A DNA stretch of 5,117 bases, from contig JACQWU010000216.1 of NCBI GenBank assembly GCA_016209155.1, forward strand, positions 1 to 5,117, given 5' to 3'. Every line of letters starts with the position of its first letter. Position 1 is the first letter of the stretch. Below, piece by piece: positions 3,114 to 5,117 of the stretch. This DNA is from Candidatus Desantisiibacteriota bacterium (GTDB lineage: Bacteria; JACRDZ01). Made by a program: the position numbers and the translations under genes. The notes below the pieces were generated by a model, which worked only from the letters and a program-made list of their open reading frames with translations, was not told where the DNA came from and searched no databases.

Positions 3114-4115
3114 ATGGATAAAAAAAAAGTAGTCATTATTCTAATTTTAATAATTGCTGTTGTTACAATCCTTATTTACAACTATAAAATTGATCCATAT
3201 TATTTTAGAAGTAAAACAGAAATAGAAAAAATACATTTGTCCTGTATTCCCGGAATATCAATCATAGACTCGACTGCGATAATAAAAATAGGGATAATAA
3301 ATATTTTTTTGGCATGGCATGATAAGCTGCCTTTTAATATTACTGAAAAAATAAAAAACAACAACTCTATTCTTATGATAACATGGGAACCATACTTAAA
3401 AAATAATAAGAAAAAATCCATTCTAACTGATATAACAAATGGAATTCATGATGATTTAATTAATGATTTTGCTGTTTCAATAAAAAATTATAGACATCCT
3501 GTTCTCCTTCGATGGGGGCATGAAATGAATGGTAACTGGTATTCATGGAGCGGGACGCACAATAGTAGAAATCCAAATCTTTATATTAAAGCTTATCAAT
3601 ATATACATAATGTTTTTAAAAAACAAAATGTCAATAATGTAAAATTTATTTTCAGTGTTAACCATAAAGATGTTCCATCCAATAACTGGAATAAATTTGA
3701 AAATTATTATCCCGGGGATAATTATGTTGATATTTTAGGTATTGATATGTATAACTGGGGAGAAACAAAAATCCGGGGAAATAATAAAAAATTTAAATGG
3801 AAAAATCCCAAAAGCATTCTTATAGAATCTTATGAAAGAATTATAAATGCTTATCCGGATAAACCAATTATTATTTCTGAAATAGCTTCATCCTCAAAAG
3901 GTGGAGATAAAATTCTCTGGATTCAGGATTTTTTATATTTGCTTACAGATAGGTTTTCTGCTGTTAAAGCATTTGTATGGTTTGATATAAATAAAGAGTC
4001 AGACTGGTCTGTTTCACAAGATAATAATATATGGCAGGTTTTCAATAAAGAAATTAAAAAACCTTACTATAGTAATAACATCAATAATTTTGTTGTATGG
4101 ATTTATAAGGATTGA
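3114..4115 (+). CDS. Membrane-anchored GH26-like glycoside hydrolase (beta-mannanase/beta-glucanase family)
   Basis: A 333-residue protein with a short basic N-terminus (MDKKK), a hydrophobic helix at about residues 6-23 with no lipobox cysteine, then one (beta/alpha)8-type catalytic domain. The helix reads as an uncleaved signal anchor holding the enzyme outside the cytoplasmic membrane. GH26 hallmarks are clear: ITWEPY (89-94), then LLRWGHEMNGNWYSWSG (131-147) with the likely acid/base Glu137. YYPGDNYVDILGIDMYNW (198-215) follows, then PIIISEIASSSKGGDK (251-266) with the likely nucleophile Glu256. Both catalytic residues are present, so activity is plausible. The family includes endo-beta-1,4-mannanases and beta-1,3-1,4-glucanases, and the substrate cannot be named. 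No carbohydrate-binding module is visible. The leader has no clear Shine-Dalgarno sequence, but the signal anchor supports this ATG. It leads an operon: the next gene starts 3 bases after its stop, and a UDP-sugar pyrophosphorylase follows. This context suggests a role in trimming or processing a self-made glycan, as opposed to feeding. Confidence 0.86.
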   Translation: MDKKKVVIILILIIAVVTILIYNYKIDPYYFRSKTEIEKIHLSCIPGISIIDSTAIIKIGIINIFLAWHDKLPFNITEKIKNNNSILMITWEPYLKNNKKKSILTDITNGIHDDLINDFAVSIKNYRHPVLLRWGHEMNGNWYSWSGTHNSRNPNLYIKAYQYIHNVFKKQNVNNVKFIFSVNHKDVPSNNWNKFENYYPGDNYVDILGIDMYNWGETKIRGNNKKFKWKNPKSILIESYERIINAYPDKPIIISEIASSSKGGDKILWIQDFLYLLTDRFSAVKAFVWFDINKESDWSVSQDNNIWQVFNKEIKKPYYSNNINNFVVWIYKD

Positions 4116-4118
4116 ATT

Positions 4119-4358
4119 ATGGATATAAAAGAATTTACAAAAAAGGTTGATGACGCAATTGCAAAGGAAGAAATAGGGGTTGCGATTTATGCTAAACATC
4201 TAAAAGTCATTCTGATATGGAGCGGACTATCAGATGATACAAAAAAGGAAATAATCGAGCGTATTGATAAAATTGTCAGTGACAGTAATAATCATATAAA
4301 ATTATTAGAAAAATTCAAGGAATTATATATTATAGAGAGTAAAAAAAATGTTTACTAA
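4119..4358 (+). CDS. Small two-helix protein resembling a ferritin/rubrerythrin half-domain
   Basis: A 79-residue, charged, helical protein with no signal peptide, hence probably cytoplasmic. Helix 1 spans about residues 3-33 and contains AIAKEEIGVAIYAKH (13-27). A short turn (SGLSDD, 35-40) leads to helix 2 (about 40-72) with DSNNHIKLLEKF (55-66). The pattern Glu18...Tyr24 in helix 1 and a His three residues after a polar position in helix 2 resembles one half of a rubrerythrin/ferritin-like bundle, where helix 2 normally carries E-x-x-H. Here the expected Glu is Ser56 (SNNH), so a complete iron site is unlikely in this chain alone. The start at 4119 has an AAGGA site at 4107-4111 with a 7-base gap. 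It follows the GH26 gene by 3 bases and overlaps the next gene by 11, so it is a firm operon member. The next protein begins with a similar hairpin, with Glu18 and Tyr24 at the same numbers. That it is a real gene is well supported; the fold is inferred, and the function is unknown. Confidence 0.75.
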   Translation: MDIKEFTKKVDDAIAKEEIGVAIYAKHLKVILIWSGLSDDTKKEIIERIDKIVSDSNNHIKLLEKFKELYIIESKKNVY

Positions 4359-5117
4359 AAATGATTACTTTAATTATTTTGAGCAAATAAAAAATCTTGA
4401 ATTCGTAATGCTTAAATATATTAAAGAATTCAATGATTTAATTAAAAATGAAAATATTAATAATAATGAACTATATTTAATATTGGATCAAATAAGAAAA
4501 GAAGAAGGTAATCATATTAAGCAATTGGATTATATATTGGAGGCAGTATTAAACGATAAATATATTCCGACTGCAAACATGTCCAAAGAAAAATTTTATA
4601 GTATTATGAATAGTTTCAATCAACAGCATATAATCGATCATTTCAGTCCTTTATCCTCAGAAAAACAGAATGAATTTCTCTCCAATATAAGTAATCTTGA
4701 TTTTAACCTGGTTTTTCTGCTTTATAAAAACTATATTTCAAATATACAGAAAGAAAATGTTAAATCAAATATTAAACCTGTAAATATAAATATAATTCCT
4801 CACTCAAAAAAAGAATCTAATAAAGGCGGTTTCCTGCGTTATATCGGTGATGAATGGATTAAAAATAGCAAAACTGCTGTTTTAATTGCTGCGGGCGGAC
4901 AGGGAACAAGATTGGGACATCCAGGCCCAAAAGGAACATTTAAAATTTCACCGATAAGAAATAAAACACTTTTTCAAATATATTCTGAAATTATAATAGC
5001 TCTTGAGAAGAAATATAATATAAAAATACCTTTGATTTTTTTAACAAATGAAGAAAATAGGATTGATACTGAGAGTTTTTTTAAGTTTAATAATTATTTT
5101 GGATTAGATAAAAATAA
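4348..5117 (+). CDS. UDP-N-acetylglucosamine pyrophosphorylase-like enzyme with N-terminal ferritin-like hairpin (3' end outside window)
   Basis: This frame is open from ATG 4348 to the right edge (256 residues seen). Residues about 90-256 match the start of the eukaryote-type UDPGP family, which makes UDP-GlcNAc or a related UDP-sugar from UTP and the sugar-1-phosphate. They include the helical lead-in (FSPLSSEKQNEF, 99-110), the nucleotide-binding loop LIAAGGQGTRLG (179-190), PKGTF (194-198) with the expected lysine, KTLFQIYSEII (206-216), and FFKFNNYFGL (244-253). The AGGQGTRLG form favours UAP over UGP-type enzymes. About 75 extra residues precede this. They form two helices with Glu18 and Tyr24 in helix 1 and E53-G-N-H56 in helix 2, a ferritin-like half-domain pattern. 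No stop separates the two parts. The in-frame Met78 (4579) lacks a ribosome binding site, so a true fusion is favoured. The gene starts inside the previous gene (11-base overlap) after a weak GAGAG at 4335-4339. The first part is extremely AT-rich. It probably supplies UDP-sugars for a glycan linked to the GH26 gene. Confidence 0.87.
   Translation, partial: MFTKNDYFNYFEQIKNLEFVMLKYIKEFNDLIKNENINNNELYLILDQIRKEEGNHIKQLDYILEAVLNDKYIPTANMSKEKFYSIMNSFNQQHIIDHFSPLSSEKQNEFLSNISNLDFNLVFLLYKNYISNIQKENVKSNIKPVNINIIPHSKKESNKGGFLRYIGDEWIKNSKTAVLIAAGGQGTRLGHPGPKGTFKISPIRNKTLFQIYSEIIIALEKKYNIKIPLIFLTNEENRIDTESFFKFNNYFGLDKN

Follow-up and report, generated by a model that had tools for sequence, protein, structure and literature searches.

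A predicted helical hairpin fused ahead of a predicted UAP-type pyrophosphorylase is one half of an overlapping gene pair found in two bacterial phyla

The closest described relatives of the protein encoded at the end of the contig analysed here are the UDP-N-acetylhexosamine pyrophosphorylases of the UAP/AGX type (PF01704; PDB 8yp3, 1jv1). The likeness covers the catalytic part from residue 77-88 onwards, including AAGGQGTRLG, whereas our protein adds a 77-residue helical extension (hereafter B) ahead of the usual start. The extension itself may be compared with EncFtn, which has a two-helix subunit and in which a di-iron site is built from Glu32, Tyr39, Glu62 and His65 contributed by two chains (PMC5012862). 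B has residues of the same ligand kind, but the Glu-to-Glu spacing is 30 in EncFtn and 35 in B, and the B residues are not conserved in its relative from a second genome (G349). The rubrerythrin/ferritin superfamily (PF02915, PF00210; PDB 2qqy) shares the helix pattern and a weak profile similarity with B, but B has no Pfam match and its ligand set is incomplete and not conserved. A search of the literature for a fusion such as the one described here found nothing.

The window, by which we mean the whole stretch of 5,117 bases that was analysed, is an entire contig (C72) of a draft genome of 3.08 Mb that is 79% complete. It carries the following features, in which the GH26 gene lies directly 5' of a small gene, A, that in turn precedes the fusion.

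2-424: MFS transporter, C-terminal part, truncated at the contig start
457-2978, minus strand: 2-oxoacid:ferredoxin oxidoreductase, two subunits (alpha with a fused gamma domain, and beta), whose genes overlap each other by 4 nt
3114-4115, plus strand: GH26 glycoside hydrolase, 333 aa, with an N-terminal hydrophobic segment (PF02156, E 1.4e-17)
4107-4111, plus strand: AAGGA, Shine-Dalgarno-like, 7 nt 5' of the start of A (read from the sequence)
4119-4358, plus strand: gene A, 79 aa, predicted helical hairpin and candidate partner of B (open reading frame, G349 homologue, codon usage)
4335-4339, plus strand: GAGAG, weak Shine-Dalgarno-like site 5' of the start of B (read from the sequence)
4341-4348, plus strand: run of eight A at the A/B junction
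4348-4358, plus strand: overlap of 11 nt between the end of A (stop) and B (start), the same as in G349
4348-4578, plus strand: module B, the N-terminal extension, with predicted helices at residues 4-33 and 39-68 and a linker (AF2, G349 homologue, ferritin-like profile scores)
4399-4401, plus strand: Glu18, putative ligand of helix 1 (Ser in the G349 homologue)
4504-4515, plus strand: Glu53-x-x-His56, putative ligands of helix 2 (Phe and Leu in the G349 homologue)
4579-5115, plus strand: predicted UAP-type UDP-N-acetylhexosamine pyrophosphorylase, N-terminal part, truncated by the contig end (PF01704, PDB 8yp3)

The fusion frame (4348-5115) meets no stop codon up to the contig end, which truncates the protein at residue 256. 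A Pfam search matched PF01704 at residues 125-250 (E 3.6e-11) with 42.8 bits, above the cut-off of 22 despite the truncation, PDB 8yp3 matched from residue 77 (E 3.5e-19), and the invariant nucleotide-binding motif AGGQ-x2-RLG is present. Because UAP proteins of solved structure align from residue 77 on, the catalytic part is assigned by its sequence to the UAP type of UDP-N-acetylhexosamine pyrophosphorylases, the exact sugar not being readable from the fragment. A PF01704 search of the same genome did not find the remaining fragment of the gene. A sequence-only reading of this DNA had held that the first ~75 residues are foreign to the UDPGP family, and this is borne out: both the Pfam and the PDB UAP matches begin after the extension, and residues 1-77 have no significant sequence match in Pfam, NCBIfam or PDB. 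The residues that it had named (Glu18, Tyr24, Glu53 and His56; codons at 4399, 4417, 4504 and 4513) are where it placed them, and the frame is continuous into the catalytic part, as it had said. A phmmer survey of 80 bacterial UDPGP loci, taken from contigs of sampled bacterial genomes, revealed a comparable N-terminal extension in none of them; the relatives that seemed longer have apparently unrelated frame extensions, mostly in GC-rich genomes. The extension is real, in frame, and a predicted helical hairpin fused ahead of the UDPGP/UAP enzyme.

The earlier reading overlooked the upstream partner, gene A, so that what needs explaining is a two-gene module of a putative exopolysaccharide locus and not a lone fused hairpin. 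Gene A has a codon usage that agrees with its frame, and its notable residues are Glu17, Tyr24, Lys26-His27-Leu28 and His59. A and B are weakly alike, with 1.2% of plain shuffles and 2% of pattern-preserving shuffles scoring as high. An artificial test protein (P0001, here A+B), in which A is read through into B via an artificial four-letter word, was made to allow more sensitive searches and carries no claim about the organism. Searching 386 genomes with A+B gave one clear match (six-frame E 2.6e-6), on contig C68 of G349, which belongs to another phylum than the window genome. There, a 79-aa protein (A') overlaps by 11 nt the gene of a free-standing 63-aa protein (B') that has its own stop codon. 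A and A' are equal in length and arrangement and 28% identical, and both have Glu17, Lys26-His27-Leu28 and His59, among other residues, while B' opens with MFTNEDYKNYF and B with MFTKNDYFNYF (common pattern MFTxxDYxNYF). A strong AAGGAGG precedes B' at the place equivalent to the weak GAGAG of the window. Shuffles that preserve the hydrophobic pattern reached the observed score in 0 of 1000 cases for A against A' and in 5 of 1000 for B against B'; the MFT of B is encoded by nucleotides that also encode the terminal VY-stop of A, and likeness at that point is counted once and not twice. The G349 stretch differs from the window in that B' stands alone and lacks the putative ligands, and in that no UAP is present.

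A profile of both known pairs found no third pair in the 386 genomes, and the A-B pair is known from two loci only, the window contig and G349. With A or B alone as query, 290 genomes yielded chance matches only, as judged by the encoded proteins; the whole fusion protein retrieved no relatives from genome contigs, the A/A' alignment had no match in viral contigs, and A had none in a phage collection. Ribosome recycling factor was a recurrent weak helical look-alike in searches with A and B, and was dismissed as chance, being a different and well-known protein.

The G349 operon encodes, in this order, a 193-aa protein, a TPR protein, a glycosyltransferase of family 2 that resembles cellulose synthase, A', B', a response regulator, a hybrid kinase (CHASE/PAS/HisKA/receiver/Hpt), a hemerythrin and GH26. 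GH26 is therefore present in both A-B loci, and in the window it adjoins the pair; the two GH26 proteins share 38% identity over 261 aa (E 3e-59). In a third genome (G026), a TPR protein, a glycosyltransferase, GH26 and a PilZ protein are encoded in a row, and the glycosyltransferase, which sits between the TPR and GH26 genes, is strongly similar to that of G349 (phmmer 9e-141); no recognisable A or B is present at this locus. The A-B pair belongs to a polysaccharide locus with a TPR/GT2/GH26 core that is recognisable elsewhere. The window contig has no glycosyltransferase up to its end within the UAP gene, and by analogy its genes may form part of an exopolysaccharide operon, given the GH26, the UAP and the G349 parallel; the product, judging from the protein families, would be an exopolysaccharide under c-di-GMP control. 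Because B' stands alone in the G349 cluster and GH26 is common to both loci, B would normally be a separate small protein of the exopolysaccharide locus that has become fused here.

Several further features of these loci may be recorded. In G349 the GH26 gene is adjoined by a serine/threonine-kinase-PilZ fusion (L202:1984-3138) and a PTS EIIA-PilZ fusion (L202:941-1774), which suggests c-di-GMP control of phosphorylation there. The hemerythrin-family gene of the A'-B'/hybrid kinase cluster (L202:4193-4603) may be what senses oxygen or iron at that cluster, instead of A/B. The G026 PilZ protein (contig C6, L233:9857-10651), encoded directly after TPR, GT2 and GH26, has GILIYLKHL in its helical C-terminal part, compared with GVAIYAKHL in A, a likeness that is near shuffle level (0.02-0.11); this protein is a possible, though statistically weak, PilZ-linked relative of A, and as a query it had no match in viral contigs or plasmids.

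Our preferred explanation, which we would put at even chances, is that B is half of an A/B helical-hairpin pair from a GH26/GT2 exopolysaccharide locus that has been fused to UAP, and that the bundle would dock or regulate the enzyme. Overlap of the two genes would allow translationally coupled production of both proteins, which may assemble, as a heterodimer or a higher oligomer, into a bundle of four helices; this bundle could serve polysaccharide synthesis as an adaptor for docking or regulation. In G349, where the synthase and the response regulator flank the pair, it would link the synthase to signalling, and in the window lineage, where B is fused in frame at the normal UAP start, the UDP-sugar enzyme would be brought to, or controlled by, the polysaccharide machinery. 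An adaptor of this kind could work with no catalytic or sensing iron site. The model draws on gene order, overlap and fusion, and a docking or regulatory role appears likelier than iron sensing because the suspected iron site is not common to the sole relative found.

A simpler alternative, already raised in the sequence-only reading and in our view possible but doubtful, is that the extension is a plain helical hairpin that dimerises or oligomerises the pyrophosphorylase, with A merely a neighbour. The AF2 model, built on a 46-sequence alignment, gives the two helices listed above, amphipathic and with strong hydrophobic faces, followed by a flexible linker to about residue 79 and then the enzyme core, as a plain hairpin would predict. 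The core is well modelled (many residues with pLDDT >90) and the extension has a pLDDT of about 50-74, so that the helices are likely while their packing is not fixed by the model. A plain hairpin leaves the conserved A-B gene overlap and the stand-alone B of G349 unexplained.

We consider it unlikely that a ferritin-like di-metal domain is split between A and B, with helices 1-2 (Glu17, His59) supplied by A and helices 3-4 (Glu18, Glu53, His56) by B, and that it binds iron or senses oxygen and so controls UDP-sugar supply. The similarity that prompts it is measurable: on three profiles built from rubrerythrins and ferritins of sampled genomes B scores 10.9-12.9 bits, above every one of 5,159 unrelated 77-aa control fragments (best 8.8), its score is reached by no more than 0.1% of shuffles in which the hydrophobic pattern is retained, and on the two of these profiles that are full-length it aligns to the C-terminal half. 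Furthermore, A+B aligns end to end with 2qqy, a four-helix protein of the sigma-B operon, with the ligand residues in register (E = 0.038), on a helical wheel Glu18, Tyr24, Glu53 and His56 lie no more than about 45 degrees from the hydrophobic face, as expected of buried ligands, and the hemerythrin gene of the G349 cluster would fit. However, B was chosen for its ExxH in the first place and its score is therefore partly selected, and the bare E...ExxH spacing is not rare, as it occurs in 3.7% of B shuffles (0.8% with the Tyr added). A has SxxH, with Ser where the Glu of ExxH would be, and scores weakly on the ferritin-like profiles (0.06-0.28 of shuffles as high), A' is marginal (0.003-0.06) and B' poor (0.03-0.55). 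The single-sequence model of A+B predicts helices in A but has low confidence (pLDDT 67, pTM 0.56), which weakens the four-helix bundle of our preferred explanation too, and a fold search with it matched helical bundles of many kinds, with no ferritin among the matches listed, a result that counts neither for nor against a ferritin fold. No ferritin-like match was obtained at E up to 10 for A or B in Pfam and NCBIfam, or for A+B in Pfam, and neither A nor B matched an encapsulated ferritin in NCBIfam.

Glu18, Glu53 and His56 are replaced by Ser, Phe and Leu in B', the only homologue of B found, an outcome that the sequence-only reading had itself specified as refuting its metal site. A metal site in B is thus unlikely, although the three residues are turned towards the hydrophobic face, and ferritin-like descent of B is possible and weakly supported by its profile scores and the 2qqy alignment, against which the poor scores of B' must be set. 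We would give only a slim chance to the fuller version, in which a split ferritin-like metal domain is spread over two overlapping genes, iron or oxygen sets the output of the UDP-sugar pyrophosphorylase for exopolysaccharide, and the G349 pair is a metal-free relative.

It is very unlikely that a single A-B-UAP gene lies here, either broken in two by a one-base error at the run of eight A or translated by slippage there. Deleting one A from 4341-4348 does join the two frames, and a frameshift at this run was attractive at first, but the G349 pair shows the identical overlap where no homopolymer exists, and B' is preceded by a good ribosome-binding site, which largely refutes it. B' ends at a stop of its own after 63 codons and has the strong AAGGAGG, so the two genes genuinely overlap and no frame has been broken; nor did a sequencing error create the fusion, since the start of B and the 11-nt overlap with A are found again in another phylum. 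Least credible of all is read-through of non-coding DNA 5' of a true start at Met78, where the start codon of the 80 UDPGP loci would typically fall (99-110 aa 5' of the AGGQ motif), since Met78 has no ribosome-binding site ahead of it in the sequence, 78 open codons have a chance of ~0.003 given that 7.2% of off-frame codons are stops, the codon usage of the extension agrees with the reading frame, and the homologous protein in G349 refutes it unless that match is due to chance.

Gene fusions of this kind often reveal proteins that work together, and it is for this reason that we offer a link between sugar-nucleotide supply and polysaccharide assembly. In at least two bacterial phyla, polysaccharide loci of the GH26/glycosyltransferase kind are accompanied by two uncharacterised small proteins, and the joining of one half of the pair to a precursor enzyme makes such a link testable.
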